Shown piece by piece: positions 35,869 to 58,275 of a stretch of 64,000 bases of DNA; position 1 is the first letter of the stretch, and each line of letters begins with the position of its first letter. Made by a program: the position numbers and the translations under genes. The DNA comes from Sphingomonas sp. Y38-1Y. GTDB taxonomy: Bacteria > Pseudomonadota > Alphaproteobacteria > Sphingomonadales > Sphingomonadaceae. The stretch covers positions 2,511,001 to 2,575,000 of the forward strand of contig NZ_CP135916.1 of the NCBI RefSeq assembly GCF_032391395.1, given 5' to 3'. The notes beneath the pieces were generated by a model. The model ran no database searches, had not been told where the DNA came from, and was given only the letters and a program-made list of their open reading frames with translations.

Positions 35869-36020
35869 TGTTAAAGGACATTGAAAAGCTGACAGATGCA
35901 GCCGCTTCACAAGGTGGTAGCGAGGAAAACGGCTTCCGGCGCAAATGACCTATTAGTTGACACTCCGCGTCCGGAAGGATGGGATCAGGGTCTTTCGACC
36001 GGTGCAATCATTATCTGACA
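35869..36020. repeat. Left transposon end with three spaced TnsB-type sites
   Basis: Reading inward, sites end in CTGACA at 35889-35894, GTTGACA at 35956-35962 and CTGACA at 36015-36020. Each is preceded by an A/T-rich half such as CAATCATTAT. Spacings are 68 and 58 bases. Three separated sites at the left end is the arrangement known for Tn7. The 98-codon antisense ORF that crosses this boundary is not a gene. Confidence 0.8.
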
Positions 36021-36078
36021 GCTCCGCGTGCGTTCGAGTGCCCGGATTCATATTGTCGCCTGTGCGCGCTTCAGCTTT

Positions 36079-37068
36079 TTACCCAGCGGTGGAGCCGGAG
36101 GTTTCACCTCGCCCTGAACCTTCGTAGTACCGCTTCCATTCAGACCTGACCAGATCCCGGTCGATGAAGAGCCGCCGGCCTAGCAGCTTGCTGAGGCTGA
36201 TGACCTCGCCGCGGCGGTCGGCTTCCTCGAACATCCAGCGGAGCTTGCGCGGCGTGAACGTCGCGTGTGTCTCGGCTTCCTCAATCAGCGCGGCGCGTGT
36301 GCGTGGGAGCGGGTAAGTCTTGAGCATCGACTGCAGCCCGGGAACACCTCGCGTCAGCATGCCCTGGGTAAAGCCCTTGCGTCGGGCAAGTGCCTTGAAG
36401 TCGGTCTCCGGCGACCAGCCGTCTCGATGGTCCTGGCTGCCGAGCATCGAGTGACCGTAGGTGGTGATGTCGCGGTATCGCATCATCGCCTCGCCGCTGA
36501 ATGGGAAGGCGATCGCCTGCGCGTCGCCCCTGTGATCGGAGGCTGGCCTGTAGGTCATGTCGCGACCCCAGGTGACGTCGACATCGCTGGCGAGCAGGAT
36601 TCCGCCATGTTCGAGGCAGATGAGACTGGTGACAAGCTGATGCCTACGAAGCCAGATCGGTGTTCCGTAGAGCCGCCGGCTCACGTCGTCGCATTCGGGG
36701 CAGTAGCGCAGGCGGTCAGGCCAGGGCAGAACCGCACGCGTGCCCTTCAACGTCCGCTGGATATTCTCCCCCGCAACCATCCGCCTTGCCAGTTCGTCAT
36801 ACTCCCCTCGCTCCCGAAGGGCCGTGTGGAAAGGCAGCAGGGTGTGATCCCTGACTATTTCGCTGACGGTGAGCGGAAGATCCGCACCGACAGTATCAGC
36901 AAGGCGCCCAATCTGCAGCGGCAAGTCGTAGGAAAACTTGATCGACTTCGTGCCGAACAGGTTCTCGTTCACGCGCCCCGTCCGGAGGCGACCCCAGCGC
37001 CCGTATCTCGCTACGATCGAATAGAGCAGCTCGTCCGGGTGGAACTGTGGGAGGAAGGCCAGCGGCAA
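36079..37068 (-). CDS. tniQ: TniQ/TnsD-family transposon target-selection protein
   Basis: This 329-residue protein has the TniQ family N-terminus (FLPQFHPDELLYSIVARYGR), the HTLLPFHTALRER block, and a zinc ribbon made of RYCPECDDV and ICLEHGGI. TniQ proteins guide Tn7-like and CRISPR-associated transposons to their targets. It is shorter than TnsD (about 500 residues), and the C-terminal 100 residues do not show the second CxNP...CxC zinc region; they end in a basic helical segment (RRLFIDRDLVRSEWKRYY). The start is a TTG. It is the last gene of the leftward cargo operon, 126 bases past the membrane-protein gene. Confidence 0.88.
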   Translation of the reverse strand: MPLAFLPQFHPDELLYSIVARYGRWGRLRTGRVNENLFGTKSIKFSYDLPLQIGRLADTVGADLPLTVSEIVRDHTLLPFHTALRERGEYDELARRMVAGENIQRTLKGTRAVLPWPDRLRYCPECDDVSRRLYGTPIWLRRHQLVTSLICLEHGGILLASDVDVTWGRDMTYRPASDHRGDAQAIAFPFSGEAMMRYRDITTYGHSMLGSQDHRDGWSPETDFKALARRKGFTQGMLTRGVPGLQSMLKTYPLPRTRAALIEEAETHATFTPRKLRWMFEEADRRGEVISLSKLLGRRLFIDRDLVRSEWKRYYEGSGRGETSGSTAG

Positions 37069-37194
37069 GGCATCTCATCGCGAATCGGGGCGCACCATCC
37101 TTGACCACCGATCCTGAATTTTTCGTCCAGCCAAAACGCCGTCCGTTCCGCTACTCCTTCGACTGAACGGCCCTTCCAACCACAGAGTTACTTT

Positions 37195-37809
37195 TCATGC
37201 GGTGCCCACCTTCCGTGCGATGACGTTCCCGACCAGACGGACGGCCGCGTTCCGGGCGGACAGGGCCACGACGACATAGGCGAGCAGCATGCCGCCGCCG
37301 AGCATCAGGATGCGATCGAGGCCGTCGGGTGTCCATGCGAGCAGCACCGGCGTGACCAGCGCGAGGAGCGCCAGGAGGACGGCGCAATCACGAAGGATTA
37401 GAAAGCGCCGGTGGTTGTCGGCGATCGCGGGGTCGCTCTCGGTCGCCTTCAACCACTTATACCAGAGCGCGTTCTGCTCGGTCGGGTTCATCGGCGTGGA
37501 GGGAAGGAGGACAGCAAGGTCCGTCGGGTCCACGCGGGCGTCCTTAGGGGCGATGACGGTGAAAGCCCGGCAGCCTGGAGGCCGGTCGCGCAGCCGCCAG
37601 AAGACGAGCACCTCCTTCACTGATCGCGGAAACAGTTCCTGCAGGACGATCATCACGATCCCGGCCAGGCCGGCAAAGCCCGCGTGCTGCAGCAGGGTCT
37701 GGGCCTGCGTCACGCGATCGAGGCCTAGCAGCCCGGCCGCGGTGGCGTAGGCCACCACGATGGGGACGAGGTATTTCGTGTTGATGCCGGTCTTGAGCAG
37801 GTCAGCCAT
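37195..37809 (-). CDS. Four-helix membrane protein of the conjugation operon
   Basis: This 204-residue protein has two membrane helices near the N-terminus (about residues 13-30 and 43-62), a cytosolic middle of about 75 residues, and two more helices (about 140-160 and 165-185). I know no named family. The start overlaps the stop codon of the E2-E1-JAB gene (TGATG), so they are made together. Small membrane proteins in antiphage operons often act as membrane-damaging effectors; that role here is inference. The cytosolic part could also hold a target for modification. Confidence 0.65.
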   Translation of the reverse strand: MADLLKTGINTKYLVPIVVAYATAAGLLGLDRVTQAQTLLQHAGFAGLAGIVMIVLQELFPRSVKEVLVFWRLRDRPPGCRAFTVIAPKDARVDPTDLAVLLPSTPMNPTEQNALWYKWLKATESDPAIADNHRRFLILRDCAVLLALLALVTPVLLAWTPDGLDRILMLGGGMLLAYVVVALSARNAAVRLVGNVIARKVGTA

Positions 37810-40085
37810 CACGGTAGCCTCAGATGCGCTTGGATGTCGTCCTGCGCGACGATGATCATCAGCGTGGGCCGCAGGTCCGGTGCGTCCTTCTCAGCGTGTG
37901 CGGTCATGGCGCGATCATCGCGGCCCGACATGTGCGCCGATCCGTCCGGGTGGCTGTGCCATGTGCCGCACAGATAGACGCGGCCGCGGGCAAGGCGGGT
38001 CAGTCGCCGCTCGGCGAGGGTGCCGCCCGCCTTGCCGAGCTCGAGCCTGGTCTCGGTCGCCGCCGACCCCGGCGGAAGGGATGAGGCGTGAATGACCGTG
38101 ATCACCCGGCGCGTCGGATCCCAGCTGCCGTAGAGGTAGCCACCGGTCTCGGCCGGAAGCGCGGCCGTGCGCTCGGCTTCCAAGGCTGCGATCGCGGAAG
38201 CGGAGACGCGAATCTGCCAGTCGTCCGCGCTGGCGGGTCGCAGGACCGTGAACGGCGCGATCGGGACCCAACGCGCACCTTTCGGCCGTAGTCGTTCATC
38301 GAGCGGGTTTAGCAGGACGCCGGCTTCGCTCCTGTCGCCGAGGATGGCGGTGCAGGCCACCGAGGCCTGCTGCTCGACCGCATGCTTGGGCAGATGCACG
38401 GTCATGGACGTGCAGCCGAAGCCGTAGAGCAGCGGATCGGGGCCGAGCGGATGCCGATCCTCGTAGTTGAGCCAGGCCGCAACGTCGGGGTTGTCGGGCG
38501 CAAGCCCGATCGTCGCAAGCATCATGTCCGACAGTGTGGGCCCGCCGGGCGGCGAGACGAACGTCATTCCGAGGCGCCCCTCATGGTACATCTCGGTCCG
38601 GACGATGGTAGCCTCGGTCGAGCCCCTCAGTTCGTCCATTCGGAGCCGGACCTGTTCGTCCGCAGTGGCGTCGATGACGAGCCGGCCGCCGGTTCGGGCC
38701 TTGAGGACGTCGATTTCGACGGTCGCGATGTCGTCCTTCACCGCCTCGGACCTGCCCTCGTCGTGCCAGAGTGCGTCCGTCAGCCTCTTCGCCTGGTCGG
38801 CCTTGTTCGCGTACACGTCTCTGGTGCGAGCGGAATGGCGGGCGAGGTTGTGGGGGTGGATGCGATCCTTGTCCCACACGAACACGTCCTCCATTCCGGA
38901 GCGGGCGAGGTTGTCGTGTATCGCGCTGCCCAGCGCGCCGTGCCCAAGCAGCGCGACCGGCGGCAGCGGGTCGACACCGGCCACCCAGCGCATGAGCGAT
39001 GGTCGTGGCGGATAGTCGCCGACGATCGTCTCGATGCGGGTGTCGGCGTCGAGGATGTCCTTGTTGAGATCCTGCGAGATCAGGAAGGCCCGCAGTTCGA
39101 GGCTCCGGGCCGCGGGGTCGTCGGAATAGCCGAAGAGGGCGCTCATGATTGGCGCCGGTCGCCACACTCCTATGATGACCACCATCGCCTTCCCGCCGAG
39201 TGGCGGCCGGTGGCACCGAAAGTCCACGTCGTTTTTCCGCAGTTCCAGGATTGCGGAGACGAAGGCAGCGTCAACGCCGATCGCCTTCATGCCCTCCAGC
39301 AGCTCGCCGCCGGTCCGCCAATTCTCGAACAGCGCGTCACGTTCGACGGCCAAGGGTTCGCGCCATACGAAGACCCATGGGATCGCGTGCCGCTCACCGC
39401 CGAAATTCCCGTTGTGATGGCCAATCGCCTTGGTGACGTCATCAGGCTGGAGGATCTGCGAGAAGACCGACACCTGCTTGCGGTCATCGTCATCGAAGCT
39501 GATCGCGACGCCCATCGCGCTGCCCGCATCGGGATAGGCGAACGCATGCTCTTGGAACGTGCGTGGCTCGAGCTGGCCCATCCGCAGCTTCTGGCCGACA
39601 CCGAACGGGACAGGCTCCCATCCGTCCATCATCAGGGTGCCCGTCTTCGCGTCGCGCAGGAAGTCGCGCAGGCGGGTCATGATCGCCTCTATGCCGGCGC
39701 GCTCGTAGATCGGCTGGATGCCGCCGAGCGCCAGGCAGGGGGCCGCTCGGCACCCCGGCTCGCCCGAGCAGAGATGGCCGATCTTGCGCGGGAAGTCCTC
39801 GCGGTCGCAGAGCACGTTGTAGGGTGCCGTGCGACCGAAGGCGCGGCCCTCGCGATAGACGAAGTGGATGCGCTCCACCTCGCGCACGTCGGTCGCCGGT
39901 TCCTCAACCGTCGGCTCGGTCATGATGTCGAAGGTCAGAATCTCACCTTCGTCCAGGCGGCGCAGTTCGATGGACGATGCGACGACACCGGCGGACTGCG
40001 AAATGCGCGCGATCTCCAGCAGCTGGCTTAGGTCTGGCTCAGCGACGATCTCGCCATCGACCGGTTCGTCGCTGCCGTCAGCCAT
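37809..40085 (-). CDS. E2-E1-JAB triple-fusion ubiquitin-like conjugation protein
   Basis: This 758-residue protein joins three enzyme types. Residues about 60-200 look like a bacterial E2 (DFPRKIGHLC, with cysteines 105, 112 and 117; RLRDFLRDAKTGTLMMDGWEP). Residues about 370-620 are a ThiF/E1 domain: GHGALG nucleotide loop at 381-386, DKDRIHPHNLARH, and a candidate catalytic cysteine in GFGCTSM. Residues about 640-758 are a JAB/JAMM protease: glutamate 646 in ETGGYLYG and HSHPDGSAHMSGRD (H710, H712, S720, D723). CBASS Cap2/Cap3 and Bil systems use the same enzyme types as separate proteins. No cyclase and no clear ubiquitin-like protein is next to it. Confidence 0.88.
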   Translation of the reverse strand: MADGSDEPVDGEIVAEPDLSQLLEIARISQSAGVVASSIELRRLDEGEILTFDIMTEPTVEEPATDVREVERIHFVYREGRAFGRTAPYNVLCDREDFPRKIGHLCSGEPGCRAAPCLALGGIQPIYERAGIEAIMTRLRDFLRDAKTGTLMMDGWEPVPFGVGQKLRMGQLEPRTFQEHAFAYPDAGSAMGVAISFDDDDRKQVSVFSQILQPDDVTKAIGHHNGNFGGERHAIPWVFVWREPLAVERDALFENWRTGGELLEGMKAIGVDAAFVSAILELRKNDVDFRCHRPPLGGKAMVVIIGVWRPAPIMSALFGYSDDPAARSLELRAFLISQDLNKDILDADTRIETIVGDYPPRPSLMRWVAGVDPLPPVALLGHGALGSAIHDNLARSGMEDVFVWDKDRIHPHNLARHSARTRDVYANKADQAKRLTDALWHDEGRSEAVKDDIATVEIDVLKARTGGRLVIDATADEQVRLRMDELRGSTEATIVRTEMYHEGRLGMTFVSPPGGPTLSDMMLATIGLAPDNPDVAAWLNYEDRHPLGPDPLLYGFGCTSMTVHLPKHAVEQQASVACTAILGDRSEAGVLLNPLDERLRPKGARWVPIAPFTVLRPASADDWQIRVSASAIAALEAERTAALPAETGGYLYGSWDPTRRVITVIHASSLPPGSAATETRLELGKAGGTLAERRLTRLARGRVYLCGTWHSHPDGSAHMSGRDDRAMTAHAEKDAPDLRPTLMIIVAQDDIQAHLRLP

Positions 40086-40794
40086 AGGAGCCGCCACCTC
40101 CGACCGCCGCGCCGCCGCCGCCGAGACCGACGGCCGCCGGCACCTTCGCGGGCGCGAGCGTCGGGCCGCCGCTGGTCAGGTTGAAGACGACATGGGCCGG
40201 AAGGTCCGAAGCTCCGTTGCCTCCGGTGCAGCGGAAGCGGCCTTCGACAGAACCCGTGACCTCGCCGGCATTGGCGAGGATCCGGAGATAGCGGCGCTTC
40301 GCGTGCCAAGACGGCGGCGTGTCGCCGCCCCGCACGACGCGCCGGCTGCTCGACACGACGTATCCGTTGCCACGCTGCTCGCCGAGCGCCTTCAACGCCT
40401 CGGCCGACTCGGTGAACTCCTCGTCCTTGCAGCCGCCGTTGAGCACCCGCCCGATCGATCGCCGCGAGCAGTGATGAGGAGCCACCAGGACGTGCCAAGC
40501 GAGATGGTCGGGGTTCTTGCGGTGAACATCCTTTTCCAATCTCTCGAGCACCTCGACCGAGGTGTCGCCGCAGGTCAGGATCAGGTTCTCGCCTCCGAAC
40601 CGCCGGATGGTCCATTGGATGACCAGGCTGGTCGGGTTCGAGGAAGCCGGAGGGCAGCCCTCCGCGGTCTTCGGAATGTCCCACTCGGCAGGCGTCGGCG
40701 CCAGCAGGCGCCACTCGAAGTCGGTGGCGATGGCGCCGGTGGTGAACCGGCTGGTGTCCATCACCTTGAGCCGGTTATGCCCAGCCTGCCCTTC
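40078..40794 (-). pseudogene. MBL-fold hydrolase, N-terminal half missing
   Basis: This is the C-terminal part of a ComEC-type metallo-beta-lactamase-fold protein. NLILTCGDTS holds a metal-ligand aspartate and HVLVAPHHCSRRSIG a histidine, but the HxHxDH motif that comes first in the family is absent. Recognisable sequence begins near EGQAGHNRLKVMDTSRF, where the reading runs into a copD fragment on the other strand. A GTG/ATG at 40764-40759 could still start a shortened product of about 228 residues. The tail is glycine-rich, ending in GGGGSYG. Its stop codon overlaps the start of the E2-E1-JAB gene. Confidence 0.75.
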
Positions 40795-41034
40795 ACGCTT
40801 TACGGCCAGCTGCTGCTTGCCAAGCTGGGCGCGTTCGCCGCGATGGTGGGGCTGGCATCCTTGAACAGGTTTCGGCTGACCCCGGCCCTTGGCTCGGTCG
40901 CGTCATCGGGGGCGGCGCGACGTGAGATCGGCGCGTTGCGGCTGAGCTTGGCGTTCGAGGCCGCGCTGGGGATCGCGGTGCTGGCGCTCGTCGCGTGGCT
41001 TGGCACGCTGGAACCGGTCGCGGCGGCTGGATGA
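40777..41034 (+). pseudogene. 3' fragment of copper-resistance gene copD
   Basis: The last 85 codons match the C-terminus of CopD-type inner-membrane copper proteins: LYGQLLLAKLGAFAAMVGLASLNRFRLTPAL, then RLSLAFEAALGIAVLALVAWLGTLEP. Two membrane helices remain out of about eight. The upstream part is missing and is replaced by the truncated MBL gene reading the other way. This marks a deletion or recombination point within about 40780-40800. Confidence 0.75.
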
Positions 41035-41072
41035 CGGTGCGGGCAGCTGCGCGTCGGCTGCCCGCACGGTCC

Positions 41073-41822
41073 TCACATTCCGCTCATGCCGGTCAGCATC
41101 CAGACCGCCATCGCGATCATGCCGAGGTTCTCGGTCAGGCTGACGAAGCCGAGCGGCACGTTCGAGCTGCCACCGACGCACGCGCACTTGAGCTCGCGCT
41201 TGTCGATGTAGACCGCCTTGAAGACGGAGACGGCGCCGACCGTGCCGATGAACAGCGCGATCGGGATCGAAAGCCAGTTCAGTGCGCCGGCCACCATGAG
41301 GACGCCGGCCAAGCCCTCGGCGAAGGGGTAGACGTAGCCGTAGCGGACCCAGCGCTTGGCGAGCAGGTCGTAGTTGAGGAACATGGTCGAGAACTTCTCG
41401 ACGTCCTGCAGCTTGAGCAGCGCCAGGACGGCCATGCTGAACCCGCCGAACCATTGCAGCGCGTGGAGCGTGAACGGAGTGCCGAACGCCGCATGGCTGG
41501 CCGCCAGAGCGAGCAGTGCGGTCATGGCGAAGAGCGCGATCACCGGGCGGTAGCTGGTGGCACCGGGCTCGGCGACGTGCAGGCCGAAATGCCGTCGCAG
41601 GTCGTCGTATCCGCCGACGCGCTCGCCGCCGATGAACACCTGCGGCGTCGTCTTCACGTCGTGCGCGGTCTTGAAGGCGTCGGTCTCGGCGCGGGTGGTG
41701 AGATGATGGTCCTCGACCTCGAAGCCCTTGCGCCGGAGCAGGTCCAGCGCCTTGAGGCCATAGGGGCAGGTATGGGTGGGCATCACCATGCGGTGAAGGA
41801 CGGCGGTGGGACGTTGGGACAC
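41073..41822 (-). CDS. Glutaredoxin-MauE fusion membrane protein
   Basis: This 249-residue protein has a glutaredoxin domain (about residues 10-85; HTCPYGLKALDLLRRKGFEV, then TTPQVFIGGERVGGYDDL) followed by a MauE/DoxX-like four-helix membrane domain (about 95-249) with a KCACVGG cysteine pair. The glutaredoxin site is CPYG, with one cysteine. I chose a GTG at 41822 because AGGAG lies six bases upstream. It is transcribed from a MerR-type promoter and is divergent from merR. A role in thiol or metal redox handling is likely; the substrate is unknown. Confidence 0.85.
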   Translation of the reverse strand: MSQRPTAVLHRMVMPTHTCPYGLKALDLLRRKGFEVEDHHLTTRAETDAFKTAHDVKTTPQVFIGGERVGGYDDLRRHFGLHVAEPGATSYRPVIALFAMTALLALAASHAAFGTPFTLHALQWFGGFSMAVLALLKLQDVEKFSTMFLNYDLLAKRWVRYGYVYPFAEGLAGVLMVAGALNWLSIPIALFIGTVGAVSVFKAVYIDKRELKCACVGGSSNVPLGFVSLTENLGMIAMAVWMLTGMSGM

Positions 41823-41859
41823 GGGGTGCTCCTGTTTGCGGTTCAACTGCACCCGGCCC

Positions 41860-41890
41860 ATATAGGGTCCGTAGTATGGTCCGGAGTCAA
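41860..41890 (-). promoter_or_regulatory. MerR-type promoter of the glutaredoxin-MauE gene
   Basis: On the minus strand TTGACT (41890-41885) and CTATAT (41865-41860) are 19 bases apart, the over-long spacer typical of MerR-controlled promoters. The spacer reads CCGGACCATACTACGGACC, with CCG/CGG symmetry. The merR start codon lies just to the right. Confidence 0.85.
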
Positions 41891-41896
41891 TAGCCC

Positions 41897-42289
41897 ATGT
41901 CGAGGATGACGATCGCACGATTGGCGGAGGCTGGCGGGGTGGGCGTCGAGACGGTGCGTTACTATCAGCGCCGGGGTTTGCTCAGCGAACCCAAGCGGCC
42001 GGGCGGCAGCGGGTTCCGCAGCTACGGCGAGCCCGACGTCCGTCGTCTGCGCTTCATCCGGTCGGCGCAGGGTGCTGGGTTCACGCTGGACGAGATCGGC
42101 GAACTGCTCGAGCTGGACGCCGTCGATGACCGCGTGCGGGCGCGCGAGCTGGCGAGGTCGCGCGTGGCGGCGCTGGATGCGAGGATCGCAGAGCTGCAGG
42201 ACGCGCGGTCGGCGCTCGTTCGGCTGGCCGACGCGTGTGGCAGCGGGTCGGCAGGGGCCTGCCCCATCATCACCGCCTTCGAGCCCTGA
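41897..42289 (+). CDS. MerR-family regulator lacking the first metal cysteine
   Basis: This 130-residue regulator has the MerR winged HTH (TIARLAEAGGVGVETVRYYQRRGLL), a coiled-coil dimer helix and a C-terminal metal loop. Mercury MerR uses three cysteines; here the two late ones are present (ADACGSGSAGACPII) but the first, normally in the LELDGTHC segment, is replaced (LELDAVDDRVRA). The signal is therefore probably not mercury in the standard mode. It is divergent from the glutaredoxin-MauE gene and should act on the promoter at 41860-41890. Confidence 0.88.
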   Translation: MSRMTIARLAEAGGVGVETVRYYQRRGLLSEPKRPGGSGFRSYGEPDVRRLRFIRSAQGAGFTLDEIGELLELDAVDDRVRARELARSRVAALDARIAELQDARSALVRLADACGSGSAGACPIITAFEP

Positions 42290-42514
42290 TCACCCGCGCC
42301 GCGGAAACGACCGCCACGGCCGCTGCGACGGCGTGAGGGTCAGTCCCAGCACCTGCGCCCGGCCTCGCAGGCCGTCGATCGTCCTTCCCATCTCCCGGGC
42401 GATCTGCGCCGTCTGCTGGCGCGCCTCGAGGCGGACGCGGAGTTCGGCGTCGTCCTCGTCCGTCCACCGGCGTGGCCCCCGCGGCGCCGCCGGCGGCTTC
42501 CCGTCGTCAGCTAT
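42290..42514 (-). CDS. Small SANT/Myb-like DNA-binding ORF with no standard start
   Basis: The frame reads ADDGKPPAAPRGPRRWTDED, then DAELRVRLEARQQTAQIARE and MGRTIDGLRGRAQVLGL, a pattern like the SANT/Myb or GcrA helix-turn-helix (tryptophan, acidic run, QIAREMGRT turn). It ends at 42290 next to the merR stop codon. No ATG, GTG or TTG precedes the domain; the nearest options are ATA (42514) or ATC, overlapping the end of czcD. It may be translated by read-on from czcD, use a rare start, or be damaged. Confidence 0.45.
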   Translation of the reverse strand: MADDGKPPAAPRGPRRWTDEDDAELRVRLEARQQTAQIAREMGRTIDGLRGRAQVLGLTLTPSQRPWRSFPRRG

Positions 42515-43424
42515 GGAGATGCCCGCTCTCCTCGCACGCCTCGCCCGGTCCCTCGGTCTGGATCGTCGCGTGCTCGATCCCGAACCGCTCGTGAATCAGG
42601 TCCGCCACGGCCTTGCGGACGGTGTCGGCATCCGCGCCCGGTGCCAGCGTGACGTGCATCGTGCAGCTGACGTCCTCGTTCGACATCGACCAGACGTGCA
42701 GGTCGTGGAGCCCCGCGACGCCGGGGACGGCCGAGACCGCCGCCCGCACCTCGACGAGCCGCAGGCTCGACGGCACGCCCTCGAGCAGCACGTTCGTCGT
42801 GTCGCGCAGCAGGACCCACGTCCGCGGCAGCACCCACAGGCCGATCGCCACGGCGACGATCGGATCGATCCAAGTCCAGCCGGTGAAGCGGATCGCCAGC
42901 GCGCCGACGATGACGCCGACCGACCCGATCATGTCCGCCCACACCTCGAGATAGGCGCCCTTCACGTTGAAGCTGCCGTCCTTGCCGGCGGTCAGCAGCC
43001 GCATCGAGATCAGGTTCACGACGAGGCCGACCGCCGCGACGATCAGCATGCCCCACGATTGCACCGGCTCGGGATCGGTGAAGCGCTGGACCGCCTCGAC
43101 GAACACGTAGATCGCGATGCCGAACAGCAGGATCGCGTTGAACGCGGCGGCCAGGATCTCGAACCGGCGGTAGCCGAACGTGCGGCGATCGTCGGGCGCA
43201 CGCTGCCCGATCCGGATGGCCATGAGCGCGATCACCAGCGCGGCGACGTCGGTGAGCATGTGGGCTGCGTCGGACAGCAGCGCGAGGCTGTTGAACACGA
43301 AGCCGCCGATGACCTCCGCCACCAGATAGGTGGACGTGAGCGCGAGCGCCCAGCCGAGCATCTTCGCGTTCGCGCCGGCGGTGTGGTCGTGGGAATGGCC
43401 CCCGGGGCCGTGGTCATGCGCCAT
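42507..43424 (-). CDS. czcD: Cation diffusion facilitator, CzcD-type
   Basis: This 305-residue proton antiporter exports Zn, Cd or Co from the cytoplasm. It has a histidine-rich start (MAHDHGPGGHSHDH), six membrane helices, the metal-site motifs in SLALLSDAAHMLTD (helix 2) and EVWADMIGSVG (helix 5), and a C-terminal cytoplasmic domain with HVWSMS and a HLHS tail. Its ATG lies 11 bases inside the end of czcA, so it is the last clear gene of the czc operon. Confidence 0.92.
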   Translation of the reverse strand: MAHDHGPGGHSHDHTAGANAKMLGWALALTSTYLVAEVIGGFVFNSLALLSDAAHMLTDVAALVIALMAIRIGQRAPDDRRTFGYRRFEILAAAFNAILLFGIAIYVFVEAVQRFTDPEPVQSWGMLIVAAVGLVVNLISMRLLTAGKDGSFNVKGAYLEVWADMIGSVGVIVGALAIRFTGWTWIDPIVAVAIGLWVLPRTWVLLRDTTNVLLEGVPSSLRLVEVRAAVSAVPGVAGLHDLHVWSMSNEDVSCTMHVTLAPGADADTVRKAVADLIHERFGIEHATIQTEGPGEACEESGHLHS

Positions 43425-46400
43425 GCGTCTGCACTCCTTCGATGTCGGTGGTTGCGTCCGTCGCGCTCGCCTCGATCCTTCGCTGGCCGAAGCGGGCGTA
43501 GAGCGTCGGCAGCACGAACAGCGTCAGCAGCGTGGCCGAGATCAGCCCGCCGATGACGACCGTCGCCAGCGGCTTCTGCACCTCGGCCCCCGCGCCATGG
43601 CCCAGCGCCATCGGCACGAAGCCGAGCGAGGCGACGAGCGCCGTCATCGCGACGGGCCGCAGGCGCGCCAGCGCGCCCTCGCGGGCGGCCGCGGCCCGGT
43701 CGAGGCCTCGCGCCAGCAGGTCCTGGATCGCGGACAGCATCACCAGTCCGTTGAGCACCGCGACGCCCGACAGCGCGATGAAGCCGACGGCGGCCGAGAT
43801 CGAGAACGGCATGCCCCTTAGCAGCAGCGCGAGGATGCCCCCGACCAGGGCCAGCGGCACGCCGGTGAAGACGATCAGCGCGTCGCGGACCGAGCCGAGC
43901 GCCCCGTAGAGCAGCAGCATGATGACCGCGAAGCAGATCGGCACCACGACCATCAGCCGGTCACGCGCCGACGCCAGGTTCTCGAACTGGCCGCCCCATT
44001 CGAGGTAGGTGCCTGGCGGCATCTTCACCCGGGCGCCGATCGCCGCCTGCGCGTCCGCCACGACGCCTGCGACGTCCCGGCCGCGCACGTTCGCCTGCAC
44101 GACGACGCGGCGCTTGCCGTTCTCGCGGCTGATCTGGTTCGGGCCGTCGACGATCTCGATGTTGGCCACGGTGGAGAGCGGCACGAACCCGCCCTCGGCC
44201 GTGGGCACGGGCACCTGCGCGATGGCGGTGAGGTCGGAGCGTGCCGCCTCAGGCAGGCGGATCACGACCGGGAACCGCCGGTCGCCCTCGAAGATCATGC
44301 CGGCCTCGCGCCCGCCGATCGCGGCGGCGACCGTGTCCTGCACGTCGCCGGCAGTCACCCCGACCCGCGACATCGCGGTGCGGTTCGGCCGGATGTCGAG
44401 CATCGGCAGCCCCTCCGTCTGCTCGACCCGCACGTCCGTCGCGCCCTGCGTCCGGCGCAGCACGCCGGCGATCGCCTCGGCGGTCGCGTTCATCTGCGCG
44501 AAGTCGTCGCCGAACACCTTGACCGCGACGTCGCCGCGCACGCCCGCGATGAGCTCGTTGAAGCGCATCTGGATGGGCTGGGTGATCTCGTAGTTGTTGC
44601 CCGGCAGGGTCGAGAGGCGCTTCTCGAGCCGCTCGACGAACTCGGCCTTGCCGAGGTTCGGGTCGGGCCACTGCTCCCTCGGCTTCAGGATCACGAAGGT
44701 GTCGGTGATGTTCGCAGGCATCGGGTCCGATGCGATCTCGGACGTGCCGGTCCGGGAGAACGCGAACTGGACCTCCGGCTCCTTGGCGATCGCCTTCTCG
44801 ACCTGCGCCTGCATCGCCTGGCTCTGGTCGACCGACGTGCCGGGGATGCGGATCGCCTGGACCAGCACGTTGCCCTCGTCGAGCTGCGGCAGGAACTCCT
44901 GTCCGAGCGTCGTGAAGGCGACGGCCGACAGCGCGAGTGCGCCCACCGCGATGCCGAGCGTGGCGTTGGGGCGGCGCAGGGCGGTGTCGAGTCCCGGCTC
45001 GTACCGCCGGCGGAGCGCGGATATGATCCGCCCCTCCCTTTCCTCCACCCGCTTGCTCAGCCAGATCGCGATCGCGGCGGGCACGAAGGTCAGCGACAGG
45101 ACGAACGCGAAGACCAGCGCGATGATCACCGTTAGCGCCATGGGTTCGAACATCTTGCCCTCGACGCCCGTGAAGGTGAGCAGCGGCGCGTAGACGAGGA
45201 TGATGATCGCCTGCCCGTAGACGGACGGGCGGATCATCTCGCGGGCGGACGCCGCGACGATGGCGAGCCGTTCCTTCAGCGGCAGCGCGTCGTCGCGTCC
45301 GTGCTGCGCCTCGGCCAGCCGCCGCAGCGAGTTCTCGACGATGATCACGGCGCCGTCGACGATCAGCCCGAAGTCGAGCGCCCCCAGGCTCATCAGGTTG
45401 GCGGACACGCCGGCCTGCAGCATGCCGATGCTGGTCAGCAGCATGGTGATGGGGATCACCATCGCGGCGATCAGCGCCGCGCGGAAATTGCCCAGCAGAG
45501 CGAACAGCACGACGATCACAAGCAGCGCGCCCTCGGCGAGGTTGCGCGCCACGGTGGCGATGGTCGAGTTGACCAGGTCGGTGCGGTTCAGCACCGGCTT
45601 GACCACCACGTCGACCGGCAGCGACGGTCCGATCTCCTCCAGGCGCTTCGAAACGCCGGTGGAGACCGTGCGGCTGTTCTCGCCGATCCGCATGACGGCG
45701 GTGCCGACGACCACCTCGCGCCCGTTCTCGGACGCCGAGCCCATCCGCAGGCCCTGTCCCGTCCTGACCTCCGCCACCTGGCTCAGCACGATCGCCACGC
45801 CCTCGCGGGTGGCGATCACCGTCCGGGCGAGCTCGTCCGCGGTGCGGACGCGGCCATCGGCGCGCACCGACAGTCCCTCGCCGTTGCGATTGACCACGCC
45901 AGCACCGGCGCTGGTGTTGTTGCGCTCGAGCGCGGTGGCGAGGTCCTGCAGCGTGATCTTCATCGCGGCCATGCGCTGCACGTCGGGGACGACCAGATAT
46001 TCCTTGGTGTAGCCGCCCAGCGAGTCGATGCCGGCGAGGCCGGCGGTGCCCTTCAGCTGCGGCGCGACGATCCAGTCCTGCACGGTGCGCAGGTAGGTCG
46101 CCTTGTCAGCCTCGCTGACGAGGTGGTCGCCTTCCGGGCTGATGTAGCTGCCGTCGGGCTGCAGCCCGGGCTCGCCGCTCTTGTGGTTGACCTTGTCGAG
46201 CTCGCGGTATTCGACGGTCCACATGAAGATGTCGCCGAGGCCGGTGGCGATCGGGCCCATCTCGGGGTTCACGCCCTCTGGCAGGTCCTCCTCGGCCGTG
46301 CGCAGGCGCTCGGACACCTGCTGGCGCGCGAAGTAGATGTCGGTGCCCTCGTCGAACACCGCCGTGATCTGGGCGAACCCGTTGCGGCTGAGCGAGCGGG

Positions 46401-46644
46401 TGTATTCGAGGCCGGGGATGCCGGCGAGCGCGGTCTCTACCGTGAAGGCGACCTGCTTCTCGACCTGGTCGGGTGAGAGCGCTGGTGCGACGACGTTGAT
46501 CTGGACCTGGTTGTTGGTGATGTCGGGGACGGCATCGATCGGCAGCCGCTGGAGCGCGAGCATGCCGGCGATGGCGGCGACGGCGGTGAGCAGCAGGACG
46601 AACCAGCGCCGCTCCACCGAGAAGGTGACGATGCGGGCGATCAT
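43414..46644 (-). CDS. czcA: RND heavy-metal efflux pump, CzcA/CusA family
   Basis: This 1,076-residue inner-membrane pump drives metal out through the CzcB and CzcC partners. It has a first helix (RRWFVLLLTAVAAIAGMLAL), two large periplasmic loops, and the conserved helix-4 block SLGALDFGLIVDGAVIIVEN with the DFG...DGAV aspartates and glutamate typical of the zinc/cobalt/cadmium HME-RND class. Length and helix pattern are complete. It starts three bases after czcB. Confidence 0.95.
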   Translation of the reverse strand: MIARIVTFSVERRWFVLLLTAVAAIAGMLALQRLPIDAVPDITNNQVQINVVAPALSPDQVEKQVAFTVETALAGIPGLEYTRSLSRNGFAQITAVFDEGTDIYFARQQVSERLRTAEEDLPEGVNPEMGPIATGLGDIFMWTVEYRELDKVNHKSGEPGLQPDGSYISPEGDHLVSEADKATYLRTVQDWIVAPQLKGTAGLAGIDSLGGYTKEYLVVPDVQRMAAMKITLQDLATALERNNTSAGAGVVNRNGEGLSVRADGRVRTADELARTVIATREGVAIVLSQVAEVRTGQGLRMGSASENGREVVVGTAVMRIGENSRTVSTGVSKRLEEIGPSLPVDVVVKPVLNRTDLVNSTIATVARNLAEGALLVIVVLFALLGNFRAALIAAMVIPITMLLTSIGMLQAGVSANLMSLGALDFGLIVDGAVIIVENSLRRLAEAQHGRDDALPLKERLAIVAASAREMIRPSVYGQAIIILVYAPLLTFTGVEGKMFEPMALTVIIALVFAFVLSLTFVPAAIAIWLSKRVEEREGRIISALRRRYEPGLDTALRRPNATLGIAVGALALSAVAFTTLGQEFLPQLDEGNVLVQAIRIPGTSVDQSQAMQAQVEKAIAKEPEVQFAFSRTGTSEIASDPMPANITDTFVILKPREQWPDPNLGKAEFVERLEKRLSTLPGNNYEITQPIQMRFNELIAGVRGDVAVKVFGDDFAQMNATAEAIAGVLRRTQGATDVRVEQTEGLPMLDIRPNRTAMSRVGVTAGDVQDTVAAAIGGREAGMIFEGDRRFPVVIRLPEAARSDLTAIAQVPVPTAEGGFVPLSTVANIEIVDGPNQISRENGKRRVVVQANVRGRDVAGVVADAQAAIGARVKMPPGTYLEWGGQFENLASARDRLMVVVPICFAVIMLLLYGALGSVRDALIVFTGVPLALVGGILALLLRGMPFSISAAVGFIALSGVAVLNGLVMLSAIQDLLARGLDRAAAAREGALARLRPVAMTALVASLGFVPMALGHGAGAEVQKPLATVVIGGLISATLLTLFVLPTLYARFGQRRIEASATDATTDIEGVQTHGA

Positions 46645-46647
46645 GGC

Positions 46648-47799
46648 TCAGTCCTCATGGCTCGCCTCGCCCTTTCCGAGCTCGGCCTTGAGGGTGAAGG
46701 AGTTGGTGGACGCGATGCGTTCGTCACCGTTGAGACCGGCCGTGACTATGACCTGGCCGCCGTTGCGACGGCCGAGCGTCACCGGCACCGCCTTGAAGCC
46801 GGTCGCGGTGCGCACGAAGACGTGCGGCTTGTCCTCGATCATCTGGACGGCGGCCGACGGCACGGCGACGGTCCGGTCGCCGCCTGCCGGCACGATGACG
46901 GACGCGTTGACGGTCTCGCCCACGCGCCAGGTGTTGCCGCCGTTGTCGAGCGTGGCGATGACCGGCACCAGCCGGGTGGTCTCGTCGAGGACCGGCGACA
47001 CGAACGTGACCCGTGCGGCCTGCCGACGCCCGGGACCTGTGACCTCGACCTGCGCGCCGGGCTGCACGCGCCCGGCATCCGCCGGCAGCAGCGACATCGC
47101 GACCGATACCTTCGACAGGTTGGCGATGCGGAACAGCTCCGCGTCCGCCGCCACGGTCTGGCCGAGGGTGGCCGACCGGGCGATGACCTGCCCGGAGATG
47201 GGCGAGCGCACGGTGACGCGGTTGAGCGCCCCTCCGCCGCCGCCGGTTGCGGCGAGCTGCTGCTGCGCGAGGCGGAGCGCGATGTTGGCCTCGGTCGCCG
47301 CCGTGCGGGCGGCAATCAGGTCCTGCTCGGGCGAGACGCGCTCGGCGAACAGACGCTGCTCGCGCCGGAGGTTGGACTGTGCCAGTGCCGCCCGGGCGCG
47401 CGCCGCCTCGATCTCGCCCTTCAGCGATGCCGCCTCGCGGCTCTCGATCACGGCGAGCACGTCGCCGCGTCCGACGGATTGCCCAAGGTTCCTGGTCAGC
47501 GATACGAGCCGCCCGCCGATCGCGGCGGACGCGACCTGCACGCCCTGCGGATCGCCCTCGATCGTGGCGCTCACCTCGATGGCGCCGGCGACGCCGCCGA
47601 CCGTCGGCCGGACGACCTCGATGCCCGCGTCGGTGATCTGCTGCTGGGTGAGCGTGACCACGCCCTCCTCGGCGTGGCCTTCCTCGGCCGCGTGCTCGCC
47701 GGCGGCGTTCTCCGCCGGCGCTTCGGTGCCGCCGCCGCAGCCGGCGAGCGTCAGTGCTAGGGTCGCGGGGACGAGCGCCCGCAGGATGGTCTTCTTCAT
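46648..47799 (-). CDS. czcB: RND periplasmic adaptor, CzcB family
   Basis: This 383-residue lipoprotein links CzcA to CzcC. LALTLAGCGGG gives the lipobox; the next part is acidic and histidine-bearing (EHAAEEGHAEEG). The biotinyl-lipoyl domain halves (VEVSATIEG... and VRSPISGQVIARSATLGQTV) flank a coiled-coil hairpin (about residues 120-165), and the beta-barrel segment follows. The start overlaps the czcC stop codon (ATGA). Confidence 0.93.
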   Translation of the reverse strand: MKKTILRALVPATLALTLAGCGGGTEAPAENAAGEHAAEEGHAEEGVVTLTQQQITDAGIEVVRPTVGGVAGAIEVSATIEGDPQGVQVASAAIGGRLVSLTRNLGQSVGRGDVLAVIESREAASLKGEIEAARARAALAQSNLRREQRLFAERVSPEQDLIAARTAATEANIALRLAQQQLAATGGGGGALNRVTVRSPISGQVIARSATLGQTVAADAELFRIANLSKVSVAMSLLPADAGRVQPGAQVEVTGPGRRQAARVTFVSPVLDETTRLVPVIATLDNGGNTWRVGETVNASVIVPAGGDRTVAVPSAAVQMIEDKPHVFVRTATGFKAVPVTLGRRNGGQVIVTAGLNGDERIASTNSFTLKAELGKGEASHED

Positions 47800-49061
47800 G
47801 GCTGGACTTCCGTGTTGGCTGGCGCGCGGGCGGTGAGCCGCTCCAGGCGCGCCTCGGCGTCGTGATAGGCGGCGAGCGCGTCGATGGCGGCCGAGCGGGT
47901 CTGGGCGAGCGTGCGCTCCGCCTCGAGCAGGTCGAGCTGGCCGAACTTGCCCTCGCGGTAACCGATGCGGGCGATGCGGGCGGCCTCCTGAGCCGCCGCG
48001 AGCGCCGGGCCGTTTGCCGCTCGCGCGTTCGCCTCCGCGTTGGCGAGGTCGGTCTCCGCCGTGGCGATCGCCCGCTGCGCGTCGAACAGCGCGACCCGCC
48101 GCAGCGCCTCGGCCTGGTCCCGTTCTGCGCGGGCGGCGTCGACGCCGGCGCGGCCGTTGTTGAACAACGGGATCGGCACGCTGACGCCGAATACCGCCGC
48201 CACGTCGTTGGTGGCCTCCAGCCGGCGGGCACCTGCGCTCAGCGTGAGGTCCGGGACCCGCTGGCTGCGCGCCAACCGCACCTGCGCATTGGCGGTCGCG
48301 ACCTCCGCCTCCGCCGCGGCCAGGGCAAGCGTCCCTTCCGGACTGATGGGAAGCCGCGGGCCGAGGCCGGCGGCGACCCTGTCGAACCAGCCGAGATCGA
48401 GGGCGCCGGGGTCGCGCCCGATCAGCCGTGCCAGGTTGGCGCGCGCGAGTGTCACCGCCCGCTCGGCCTGGGCGAGCGCGGTGTCCGCGTTGATGCGAGC
48501 GACGTCGGCGCGCTGCTCCTCCAGTGGGGAGGCCCGGCCGGCGCGGACGCGCACGTTCGCCGCCCTCAGTCCCTCGGTGGCGATGCGCCGCTGGTCGCGC
48601 GCGATCAGCAGCCGGCGTTCGGACGCCACCGCCTCGTTGTAGGCCTGGGTGACGCGGAGCCTGAGATCGACACGGGCCGTCACCACCGCCAGTCGGGCAC
48701 GGGCGGTCTGCGTGTCCGCCACTGCGATCCGCGCGGAGCGCTTGCCGCCGAGCTCCAGCGGCAGCGACATGCCGACGGTCGTCTCGGCGCCGCGGATGCC
48801 GCTGTATGCGCCCGTGCCGACGACGTTCTCGACCTCCACGTTGACCGAGGGGTTGGGCCGCTGCCCGGCGACGCGGCGCTGGGCCTCGGCGGCCCTGACC
48901 CCGGCGTCCGCTGCCCCGATCCCCGGCGCATTGGCGCCTGCGAGGTCGAGCGCCTGTTCAAGCGTGAGCCCATCCTGCGCGGCTGCCGGTGGACTGGTCT
49001 GCGCCTGCGCGGACGATGCGCAGACGGATGCGGCCAGCGCGGCCGCGATGATGCGATGCAT
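47796..49061 (-). CDS. czcC: Outer-membrane efflux protein, CzcC family
   Basis: This 421-residue TolC-like protein has a signal peptide (MHRIIAAALAASVCASSAQA) and two repeated alpha-barrel halves. LTLEQALDLAGANAPGI and GQRPNPSVNVEVENV are standard; the second half repeats this pattern with the VPDLTLSAG strand. AGGAG lies six bases before the ATG. It is the first of the czcCBA genes and follows the histidine-rich gene. Confidence 0.93.
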   Translation of the reverse strand: MHRIIAAALAASVCASSAQAQTSPPAAAQDGLTLEQALDLAGANAPGIGAADAGVRAAEAQRRVAGQRPNPSVNVEVENVVGTGAYSGIRGAETTVGMSLPLELGGKRSARIAVADTQTARARLAVVTARVDLRLRVTQAYNEAVASERRLLIARDQRRIATEGLRAANVRVRAGRASPLEEQRADVARINADTALAQAERAVTLARANLARLIGRDPGALDLGWFDRVAAGLGPRLPISPEGTLALAAAEAEVATANAQVRLARSQRVPDLTLSAGARRLEATNDVAAVFGVSVPIPLFNNGRAGVDAARAERDQAEALRRVALFDAQRAIATAETDLANAEANARAANGPALAAAQEAARIARIGYREGKFGQLDLLEAERTLAQTRSAAIDALAAYHDAEARLERLTARAPANTEVQP

Positions 49062-49115
49062 GTGTTGCTCCTGACGTGGGATGACGGCCGCCGGGTTCCG
49101 GCGGCGCGGCGCACG

Positions 49116-49463
49116 TCAGGCGATCGGCGGTCTCAGCGTGGAGTCGGCCTGGACCATCGCGAGTTCGGCGCTGTCGCCGGCCATGTGCTCGCCCGCGCTC
49201 GCTCGCGGGGCGGCGTGCGCCACCCGGTCGAGCGGGGCGGCGACGTGGTGGCCGTGGCAGCCACCGTGGTGATGCGGGTAGCCCTTCTCGGAATCGGCGG
49301 GCACCTGGTCGGCATCGCCATCGACGTGACCGGCGACCGCGGCCGCTTCGACACCCGGGATGCACATCTGCTCGTTCGCGTGCGCGGCCACGCCCAGCCC
49401 CATGGAGGCTAGGAGCGCGAGGCCGATCAGGAAGCGCAGCATGCGTGACACGAGGGACCGCAT
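49116..49463 (-). CDS. Exported histidine-rich small protein of the czc operon
   Basis: This 115-residue protein has a signal peptide (SRMLRFLIGLALLASMGLGVAAHA) and a mature part with a GYPHHHGGCHGHHVA cluster, which should bind Zn, Cd or Co in the periplasm. No other domain is visible. It lies between DUF3703 and czcC on the same strand. It could buffer metal or deliver it to the pump; that is inference. Confidence 0.7.
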   Translation of the reverse strand: MRSLVSRMLRFLIGLALLASMGLGVAAHANEQMCIPGVEAAAVAGHVDGDADQVPADSEKGYPHHHGGCHGHHVAAPLDRVAHAAPRASAGEHMAGDSAELAMVQADSTLRPPIA

Positions 49464-49498
49464 AGCATCGTCTGACCGGCGTGTCAGCGACGGAGCGG

Positions 49499-49864
49499 TC
49501 ACGGTTTCGGCTCCGCTTCGATCGTGGCACGCAGGTCTGCGGGGATCGGCATGGGCTGGAACGCGCTGACGTTGGAGCGGCCCGTGTTGCCGACCGGTAT
49601 CCGACCCGTCAGCGAGCCGATCGGCGCCAGGGCCAGCCGCAGCGTCTGGCCCGCGACTTCGCGCAGGTCGCGCTGGCGAACGGCATAGCCGAGCATGGTC
49701 CAGTGCACCCGCAGGTGCAGCGGAAGATCGGGTTGCGAAAGGATGTGGGCACGTTCCAGCGCCCACCAGGCGGCGCCGATGTCGCCGATGGCGGCCGAGG
49801 CGTCGTGTCGCTCGAGTTCAAGCCCGACGAGTTCGCGCAGTCTCGACTTGACGAGGTCCGTCAT
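49499..49864 (-). CDS. DUF3703 family protein
   Basis: This 121-residue soluble protein matches DUF3703 by AWWALERAHILSQPDLPLHL, then VHWTMLGYAVRQRDLREVAG, and the end VGNTGRSNVSAFQPMPIPADL. Members are often found beside metal-efflux genes, and the function is unknown. The start overlaps the stop codon of the CDF gene; ATG codons at 49867 and 49864 are both possible. Confidence 0.85.
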   Translation of the reverse strand: MTDLVKSRLRELVGLELERHDASAAIGDIGAAWWALERAHILSQPDLPLHLRVHWTMLGYAVRQRDLREVAGQTLRLALAPIGSLTGRIPVGNTGRSNVSAFQPMPIPADLRATIEAEPKP

Positions 49865-50511
49865 CATGCTGCTCCCCTCTGTAGGATCTGGGCGCGACGC
49901 TCGCGGCTCAGCTCGGCGCGCGCCTGCCGGATGATCTGGACGCCGCCCGAGATGCCGAGCGTGGCCATGGTCCCGGCGACGAGCAGGTCCGGCCAGGCAG
50001 TGCCGGTGCCGAACACGCCGGCGGCGGCGAGGACGACGGCGACGTTGCCGATGGCGTCGTTGCGCGAGCAGATCCAGACGGAGCGCATGTTCGCGTCGCC
50101 CGTCCGGTAGCGGTAGAGCATCATCGCGACGGCGGCGTTGGCGACTAGGGCGGCCACGCCGACCACGCCCATCACCTCGGCCTCGGGCGTGCCGCCGTGC
50201 CCGACCGCCCAGGCCGTCGTGGCGAACACGTACATGCCGAGCAGCGCCAGTGTGCCGCCCTTCAGCAGGGCCGCGCGGGCTCGCCAGGCGAGCGCCATGC
50301 CCGCGACCCCGAGGCTGATCGCATAGTTCGCGGCGTCGCCCAGGAAGTCGAGCGCGTCCGCCTGCAGCGCCTTCGAGCCGCCCGCGACGCCCGCCGCCAT
50401 CTCGGCGACGAACATGGTCGCGTTCACGGCGAGCGCGATCCAGAGCGCGCGGCGCCACGACGGGCTGTTGTTGGGGTCGGGCTTCCCCGACGCGCAGCTG
50501 CTGCAGGCCAT
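49864..50511 (-). CDS. Short cation diffusion facilitator
   Basis: This 215-residue transporter has the six-helix CDF membrane domain only. KALQADALDFLGDAANYAIS (helix 2) and SVWICSRNDAIGNVAVVL (helix 5) hold the transport-site aspartates. The usual C-terminal cytoplasmic domain is missing. The cysteine-rich start (MACSSCASG) could pass metal to the pore. I chose the ATG at 50511; a GTG at 50517 is also possible. It is divergent from merR2 and heads the large czc operon. Confidence 0.88.
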   Translation of the reverse strand: MACSSCASGKPDPNNSPSWRRALWIALAVNATMFVAEMAAGVAGGSKALQADALDFLGDAANYAISLGVAGMALAWRARAALLKGGTLALLGMYVFATTAWAVGHGGTPEAEVMGVVGVAALVANAAVAMMLYRYRTGDANMRSVWICSRNDAIGNVAVVLAAAGVFGTGTAWPDLLVAGTMATLGISGGVQIIRQARAELSRERRAQILQRGAA

Positions 50512-50541
50512 TTCCACCTCGTGCGACTCGACGTGGATGGG

Positions 50542-50572
50542 TATATGGACCCTGTAGCAACTATAGACTCAA
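50542..50572 (-). promoter_or_regulatory. MerR/ZntR-type promoter of the czc operon
   Basis: On the minus strand TTGAGT (50572-50567) and CATATA (50547-50542) are 19 bases apart. The spacer CTATAGTTGCTACAGGGTC contains the CTAtAG/CTAcAGGG symmetry typical of zinc, cadmium and lead MerR operators. The regulator's GTG start is at 50581. Confidence 0.88.
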
Positions 50573-50580
50573 GGGGTTTC

Positions 50581-51000
50581 GTGGCCGACCTGACGATCGG
50601 ACGACTGGCCGCCGCGACCGGCGTGAAGGTGGAGACGATTCGCTACTACGAGCGGGCGGGCCTGATCGCACCGCCGGCCAGGACGGGCGGCAACTACCGC
50701 TCGTACTCAACGGGCGATCTCGACAGGCTGCGCTTCATCCGGAAGACGCGGGACCTAGGCTTCACGCTCGAGGAGATCAGGGCGATGCTGGACCTGGCGC
50801 GCCAACGGGACCGTTCGTGCGACACAATCGATGCCATCGCGTCGAAGCACCTGGCCGACGTGGATCGCAAGATCGCCGACCTGCGCGGCCTGCGACGCGA
50901 GCTCTCCGCCATCATCTCGAACTGCGCGGGTGGCACGGTGGGCGACTGCCGCATCCTGGAGGCGTTCGGCGACGAGAGACTTCGCGACAACGCAAGCTAG
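50581..51000 (+). CDS. ZntR/CadR-like MerR-family metal regulator
   Basis: This 139-residue regulator has an N-terminal HTH (TIGRLAAATGVKVETIRYYERAGL), a dimer helix, and metal-type cysteines: one in RQRDRSCDTIDAI and two in SNCAGGTVGDCRIL. This three-cysteine pattern fits zinc- or cadmium-sensing members. The GTG at 50581 has AGGGG five bases upstream. It should bind the divergent promoter at 50542-50572 and activate the CDF-czc operon when metal is high. Confidence 0.9.
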   Translation: MADLTIGRLAAATGVKVETIRYYERAGLIAPPARTGGNYRSYSTGDLDRLRFIRKTRDLGFTLEEIRAMLDLARQRDRSCDTIDAIASKHLADVDRKIADLRGLRRELSAIISNCAGGTVGDCRILEAFGDERLRDNAS

Positions 51001-51069
51001 CTCATCGTTCGTCGGATCAGATGCACCGGCACGACATCCTTGCCGGGTGCGCGACGCCGCCGCTATGCC

Positions 51070-54400: not shown

Positions 54401-54409
54401 CAGTGCTTG

Positions 54410-57091: not shown

Positions 57092-57104
57092 GCGGATCTC
57101 CAGG

Positions 57105-57434: not shown

Positions 57435-57435
57435 T

Positions 57436-58151: not shown

Positions 58152-58242
58152 TCCTCCAGACTAGACGAACCATCGTCAGCCGCAACGCCCGATGCTTGGC
58201 CGCCTCGAGGTGTGATTCAGATCGGGACAGCACAGCCGCATA

Positions 58243-58260: not shown

Positions 58261-58275
58261 GGTTGAACTGTTATG

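Follow-up and report, generated by a model that had tools for sequence, protein, structure and literature searches.

An operon of the 6A-MBL family on a Tn7-like element of Sphingomonas, and a glycine-ended tail through which its metallo-beta-lactamase-fold enzyme may serve as the conjugated modifier

What does a ubiquitin-like conjugation enzyme attach to its targets when no ubiquitin-like protein is recognised beside it? This question is raised by an operon in the 64,000-nucleotide stretch of Sphingomonas sp. Y38-1Y DNA that we analysed (contig NZ_CP135916.1, positions 2,511,001 to 2,575,000; hereafter the window, numbered from its first letter), where a single E2-E1-JAB fusion protein is encoded between a metallo-beta-lactamase (MBL)-fold protein and a membrane protein. 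A preliminary description of this DNA had seen no obvious ubiquitin-like partner for the fusion. Our analysis points to a different answer: the role is probably filled by the MBL protein's own glycine-ended tail, a feature conserved among relatives of the operon. The MBL gene of the window is itself truncated, and the local copy is most likely dead as a defence.

The fusion gene (37809..40097, minus strand) is intact. Its open reading frame (ORF) encodes 762 amino acids (aa), or 758 aa counted from the ATG at 40085, which is the length of the closest homologues. The protein is laid out as an E2 domain (residues ~20-165), a Cap2-like linker region (~170-365), an E1 domain (~370-615) and a JAMM/JAB protease domain (~625-760), and Pfam matches to Prok-E2_A (65-163), ThiF (381-487) and Prok-JAB (633-752) were each above cut-off. 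The NCBIfam model NF058523 (6A-MBL_cap2_3) scored 357.5 bits against a cut-off of 320. In an alignment of 22 rows, H108 and C121 of the E2 domain, the GxGxxG motif, D409, R420, K432 and C562 of the E1 domain, and E650, H714, H716, S724 and D727 of the JAMM domain were invariant; we take these residues to be the catalytic ones. That three enzyme domains share one polypeptide, as the preliminary description had proposed, was thus confirmed. The same description had named in advance the lack of an E2 fold at residues 60-200 as the finding that would overturn it. The AlphaFold2 model of the fusion (mean predicted local distance difference test score, pLDDT, 84) has Cap2 as its best PDB match and contains UBC-like elements, a helix, four strands and two helices, at residues 23-152. 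Because the VIA list mostly covers residues 360-638, support for the E2 part comes from the Pfam match, from the secondary structure of the model and from the whole-length Cap2 row (residues 20-613, root-mean-square deviation 30, with the domains moved). The coupled starts described earlier are also present: the fusion begins 8 bp within the MBL ORF, at the ATG at 40085, and its stop shares 4 bp with the start of the membrane-protein gene.

The pairing of an MBL gene with an E2-E1-JAB fusion side by side identifies the system. Where intact, the operon is almost certainly a member of the 6A-MBL family (NF058523 and NF058524), which corresponds to row 6a of Iyer et al. 2006 (PMC1779556), an entry that describes a triple E2-E1-JAB protein mostly next to a metallo-beta-lactamase. 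We rejected a new kind of system as a candidate, given this row and the two NCBIfam models, and the earlier proposal of a little-studied defence type gives way to a published operon type with an NCBIfam equivalog called anti-phage 6A-MBL, "anti-phage" being NCBIfam's own naming. The operon is probably a defence system. It differs from the family as described in that the local MBL is truncated, in belonging to a divergent subfamily whose MBL scores lie near the cut-off, and in having a membrane protein, here called type A, that is not part of the row 6a description. No paper using the term 6A-MBL was found in the open-licence literature, and the source of the name may lie outside it; apart from Iyer et al. 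2006, no title among the matches listed from that literature was about this system.

The evidence on the conjugated protein comes from the C-termini of the MBL proteins. An alignment of 31 of them showed the fold, then a variable stretch rich in Ala, Gly and Ser, and then Tyr, His or Phe followed by Gly, or else Arg-Ala-Gly. This motif, in which we include an Arg/Pro-Ala-Gly variant, stands at the extreme C-terminus or is trailed by a few residues, often 1-7. It was found within the last ten residues at 42 of 44 loci (the window included; the 44 have 40 different tails) and in 115 of the best 120 of 181 MBL homologues. Of these 120, 85 end in Gly (82 in Tyr-Gly), and two more have Tyr-Ala at the end. 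By comparison, the motif was present in 2 of 79 fusion homologues, in none of 72 membrane-protein homologues and in none of seven other MBLs. Six of these seven came from genomes without a listed fusion match, and L053 (a 6A fragment; loci carry L numbers, the window being L001) and L063 (the same gene as L061) were excluded from the control set. Gly endings among overlapping ORFs in all frames (17 of 100) were not used as background. In the model of the intact MBL from L013, a locus of Sphingomonas mucosissima DSM 17494 with a three-gene operon (mean pLDDT 85.4), residues 371-391 are disordered.

A tail of this kind has a counterpart in type II cyclic-oligonucleotide-based antiphage signalling systems (CBASS), which comprise a cGAS/DncV-like nucleotidyltransferase (CD-NTase), Cap2, Cap3 and an effector. 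According to the relevant passages of Jenson et al. 2023 (PMC10097602), type II CBASS conjugates the cyclase rather than a ubiquitin-like protein; the CD-NTase C-terminus is conserved as Gly/Ala with full-length Cap2 and Cap3, unlike in the other architectures examined there, and its deletion abolishes conjugation. The 6A-MBL fusion shares with type II CBASS a Cap2 fold for E2-linker-E1, that is, a Cap2-type E2-E1 enzyme, together with a JAMM protease, and the partner enzyme again ends in Gly/Ala, with the MBL in the place of the CD-NTase. Patatin or membrane effectors are common to both, and a WYL regulator stands beside several 6A-MBL plasmid copies. The two differ in that the 6A-MBL partner is an MBL-fold enzyme, its protease is fused to the E1-E2 protein, its tail often runs past the Gly and has a conserved penultimate residue. 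No CD-NTase was recognised when the three proteins of the window operon and the nearby TniQ were scanned with Pfam, PADLOC and NCBIfam, in agreement with the earlier remark that no cyclase is present. Because the MBL has the same Gly/Ala end as the CD-NTase and lies beside a Cap2-Cap3 fusion, we consider it rather likely, by analogy, that the MBL enzyme is the conjugated modifier in place of ubiquitin. As far as the searched literature goes, this tail rule may be new; the finding may exist outside open-licence papers.

We propose the following mechanism. The MBL-fold enzyme, of the ComEC nuclease type, would present its flexible tail ending in Tyr, His or Phe and Gly, or in Arg/Pro-Ala-Gly, and any residues beyond the Gly would be trimmed by the JAMM domain. 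Compared with the MBL domain of ComEC/Rec2, the 6A MBL is without a channel domain and has the added Gly-ended tail. The E1 domain would adenylate the Gly, take it over on its own cysteine and hand it on to the cysteine of the E2 domain, which would join the MBL enzyme to targets in the way that Cap2 conjugates CD-NTases in type II CBASS, where the Cap2-CdnD02 structure (7tsq) has the tail running to the ATP site of the E1. The JAMM domain would also reverse this conjugation. An infection signal would then pass through the conjugated, activated MBL, a predicted nuclease, to a swappable third protein, here the membrane protein and elsewhere a patatin phospholipase, which would damage the membrane and stop the phage.

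The copy in the window is almost certainly damaged. Its 228-aa MBL ORF (40078..40764, minus strand) keeps the GGGGSYG tail and matches NF058524 (6A-MBL_enzyme) over positions 173-346 of 346 with 121 bits, below the cut-off of 220, and the MBLs of intact relatives scored 225.7 (L013), 215.8 (L010) and 216.7 bits (L012). On these scores and alignments the local gene is a broken remnant, and its intact kin are members of the family or borderline. DNA similarity of the window to other Sphingomonas cassettes begins at 37195, where the membrane gene ends, and runs to 40776 (88.5% to L008/L009 and 85.2% to L013), and the junction at 40776..40777, located by blastn against L008, L009 and L013, marks the end of homology to intact 6A-MBL cassettes. 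Homology starts at MBL residue 160 in L013 numbering or 148 in the shorter ORF of L009, and the fragment ORF starts at residue 164; residues 1-159 (L013) or 1-147 (L009), some 150 N-terminal residues, are missing. With them went D30, D44 and the H-P-D-x-D-H metal motif, and D230, H260 and H261 are kept. The MBL-fold neighbour of the preliminary description is thus real as to homology and amounts to the C-terminal part only; an intact MBL in the window was rejected on the NF058524 score, the alignment and the end of DNA homology. The missing part had no second copy in the 3.58-Mb genome, where two other matches were weak (16.8 and 9.8 bits), so that its being encoded elsewhere was likewise rejected. 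A C-terminal remnant of copD (copper resistance D; 40785..41034, plus strand, start approximate), which matches PF05425 at positions 36-105 of 105 and lies outside the system, abuts the junction, and a single deletion or rearrangement probably cut both MBL and copD. Because the MBL active site is lost, the operon is most likely dead as a defence, with fusion and membrane protein intact. Ratios of nonsynonymous to synonymous substitution (dN/dS) against L009 and L013 were 0.137 and 0.146 for the fusion, 0.089 and 0.052 for the fragment, and 0.093 and 0.134 for the membrane gene; values of 0.05-0.15 for all three are what a constrained operon would show after a recent break. Other damaged copies were observed: an early-ending MBL in L038, a stop in the fusion of L035, split fusions in L045/L046, the MBL fragment of L053, an MBL adjoining an IS110 element with no fusion annotated in L073, and an IS3 insertion in E. 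coli VR50 (H86). The 6A-MBL system seems to be often lost.

The third gene of the operon (37195..37812, minus strand) encodes a type A membrane protein of ~204 aa with 72 homologues, and it adjoins the fusion gene in relatives. The preliminary description had given it four helices. That it is a membrane protein stands; a crude hydropathy scan found three helices in the window protein and four in its close relatives L008, L009 and L010, so that four is probable. Pfam gave nothing above cut-off for it, neither PADLOC nor NCBIfam matched it, and it had no PDB relative by sequence. Across relatives, unrelated proteins adjoin the fusion: membrane type A (a cluster of 10 that includes the window), membrane type B (8) and patatin phospholipases (7, of which three were checked by Pfam), with rarer cases in the pair L018/L037 and one PDC-M48A protein. 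L026 and P0079 have the patatin and the E2-E1-JAB protein in one polypeptide. PADLOC gave a Csx27 resemblance for L037 (E 6.2e-4) and for the type B protein of L044 (E 0.0036). On a tree of 36 fusion proteins, six effector labels, which are our own and come from clusters of 28 picked proteins plus plasmid genes labelled by eye, needed 12 changes (minimum 5; shuffled mean 21.1). The tree left out the window, L008 (equal to L009), L015 (near L014), L068/L069 (near L065), L073 (no fusion annotated), the fragments L019, L024 and L025, the broken or cut L035, L036, L038, L045 and L046, and L047-L052, in which L040-L045 occur a second time; for L026 the sequence was cut at base 3400 so as to exclude its patatin part. 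Third-gene types thus appear clustered on the tree, yet swapped several times, which suggests a slot for a swappable membrane-attacking effector, new as far as the searched literature goes. Effectors of CBASS are likewise swapped. We regard an effector role for the membrane protein as likely. An extra, tailless MBL-like gene adjoins the operon in L013 (10920-11846), L066 (9343-10260), L040 (3680-4744), L067 (6137-7207) and L018 (5654-6550, minus strand), assigned by Pfam for L040 and by eye for the other four.

Taken whole, the reading in which an MBL-fold nuclease acts as the ubiquitin-like modifier and is joined through its tail to proteins (or lipids) of the host or the phage, with unrelated membrane-attacking effectors plugging in, has in our judgement a slightly better than even chance of being right. 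Several observations weigh against the mechanism proposed above. The tail ends exactly in Gly at 24 of 44 loci, and the others would need trimming, itself a predicted step; two loci miss the motif, L038, where the MBL ORF stops early, and L072, which has TQG at its end. Nor do the 44 loci count as independent (the tails of L008 and L009 are identical), the best 120 of 181 homologues come from a search whose profile included the tail columns and so are not a blind sample, and the control set of seven MBLs is small and includes L062, which adjoins a 6A operon. The penultimate residue is mostly Tyr, His, Phe or Ala, whereas in CBASS it varies (Jenson et al. 2023, PMC10097602). In the subfamily to which the window's operon belongs, MBL scores fall on both sides of the NCBIfam cut-off. 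Four of the 36 tree rows have no recognised effector, with L040 and L067 instead having the second, tailless MBL gene; the membrane gene is convergent in L014, L016, L021 and L071, and that of L018 is upstream on the opposite strand.

Among other explanations, a separate ubiquitin-like protein encoded elsewhere could be the modifier, with the MBL only an effector nuclease and the Gly tail a linker or binding motif. The related Bil/Bub systems do have a ubiquitin-like protein dedicated to them, PDB titles among the structure matches include BubA, and a small gene could have been missed, since neighbouring ORFs were listed only above 70-100 aa; nevertheless, no beta-grasp ubiquitin-like gene was recognised among the ORFs listed, with no dedicated profile search, and no conserved further gene was recognised among them either, which may set 6A-MBL apart from Bub/Bil. 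The tail Gly is conserved while the residues after it vary, which a linker would not need, and it is missing from the seven control MBLs; we hold this explanation to be unlikely. It is also improbable that the MBL is a substrate whose tail is cut by the JAMM domain to switch the nuclease on or off, the new C-terminus being modified by E1-E2, for example with a small molecule: the 24 loci that already end in Gly need no cut, an E2 with invariant Cys121 argues for transfer to a target, and the nearest fold is Cap2. A living derivative in the window, in which the fragment retains its tail and serves as a conjugated modifier without catalytic activity, would fit the low dN/dS of all three genes and the intact frame and tail, but the low ratios are also expected if the break is recent, and a fragment without the beginning of the fold is probably unstable, with the upstream side gone as well; this we judge very improbable. 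As for a sulfur-carrier or cofactor operon of the ThiF/MoeB type with no defence role, the ThiF domain and deposited names such as thiamine biosynthesis protein ThiF are set against E2 and JAMM domains, swapped membrane and patatin genes and the NCBIfam name anti-phage, and ThiF-type NCBIfam models score far under their cut-offs; sulfur-carrier metabolism was rejected on that scan, and we give it next to no chance.

If the MBL enzyme is indeed the modifier, a second, unrelated enzyme class would obey the tail rule, making Cap2-type conjugation a general switch for immune enzymes. Taken with CBASS, it would imply that any sensor enzyme with the right tail is conjugated by Cap2-type machinery, and that a beta-grasp protein is unneeded. 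The rule would be readable from sequence, as a Gly in the tail that may or may not be followed by residues to be trimmed, and plasmid-borne relatives in E. coli and Klebsiella offer a means of testing it. Membrane proteins without a curated family, among those tested, would gain a guess at their function.

At E 1e-40, NF058523 matched 11 of 397 genomes sampled from the family, 4 of 385 from the class and 7 of 398 from the phylum; the samples overlap, and each includes the window's own genome. The MBL model was above cut-off in 6 of 299 genomes, all six of which also have a fusion match (in G781 the fusion is split and under cut-off); two genomes had MBL matches below cut-off and no fusion match, G958 (107 bits, an N-terminal fragment) and G969 (31 bits). 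MBL relatives, all under 60% identity, were present in 223 of 72,556 plasmid records, 124 of them from Klebsiella and 25 from Escherichia. At nine plasmid loci, the MBL is followed in eight by a gene of 726-774 aa annotated as ThiF, Mov34 or hypothetical, and in L073 none is annotated. Catabolic genes adjoin L071 alone among these nine, the others lying near WYL/HTH regulators, integrases, transfer genes and insertion sequence elements; the homologues are thus not confined to metabolic contexts, the other outcome that would have counted against the preliminary description.

In E. coli SE11, plasmid pSE11-2 (L065) has a WYL regulator, the MBL and the fusion side by side, with 425.6 and 661.9 bits for the MBL and fusion models. 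A crude motif pattern on the fusions of L065 and L068 recovered ETGG alone, and we limit our claim there to the L065 family score and assert no catalytic residues. Of 5426 complete E. coli genomes, 31 have matches to the SE11 pair (L065, 4992-8398), which in 29 cover at least 80% of its length; they lie on plasmids and on chromosomes. WYL regulators also adjoin copies in Klebsiella, Rhizobium and Fibrella. The WYL regulator of L065 is adjoined by a 172-aa protein with three predicted membrane helices (3472-3990, minus strand), possibly the effector of a version without a downstream one. On a Rhizobium plasmid (L070, 760-3348), genes for an ATP-binding protein, a RloB-domain protein and a nucleotidyltransferase-domain protein adjoin 6A-MBL in a defence-island-like setting. 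The fusion had no match in the phages collection and matched one locus in viral contigs.

The operon is carried on a Tn7-like element of 26,954 bp (35869..62822), which also carries metal- and arsenic-resistance genes, so that the carriage proposed earlier is confirmed and now delimited. A 5-bp duplication, GGCCG, lies outside both ends (35864-35868 and 62823-62827), the termini are TGT...ACA, and TGTCANNNAATNATTA repeats occur three times at the right end (62758-62812) and inverted at the left end (36005-36020, with 1 mismatch, and 35947-35962, with 3). A TnsD-like target selector (61564..62700, plus strand; PF15978, E 1.5e-50) lies on the side of glmS, whose C-terminal part (62847..63998, minus strand), the attTn7-type target, has two SIS stretches, the C-terminus DVDQPRNLAKSVTVE and a frame open to the window end. 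The glmS stop is 24 bases from the right end of the element, close to the 25 bp of Tn7 at attTn7. Like Tn7, the element thus combines TnsD, insertion just downstream of glmS, a 5-bp target duplication and repeated end sites; it differs in that TnsA, TnsB and TnsC were not recognised among the part of its ORFs that was scanned, rve and TniB models matching only distant places in the genome. The element may for this reason not move by itself, and the deletion at 40776 may have removed core genes. Near the left end lies a TniQ/TnsD-like protein of the carrier (36079..37068, minus strand; PF06527, E 4.1e-14). No TniQ match was found beside the operon in relatives across L001-L036 (flanks are short in L027-L036), and TniQ was rejected as part of the defence operon. 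From 40785 to 57434 the element contains the copD remnant, a glutaredoxin-MauE protein, MerR, a CDF transporter, an RND efflux triplet, DUF3703, an SBF-type transporter, ArsC and an ArsR-type regulator. Upstream of tnsD, and sharing its strand, are four ORFs (58358-61589), of which one has an RNase_T exonuclease domain and the others have no Pfam match.

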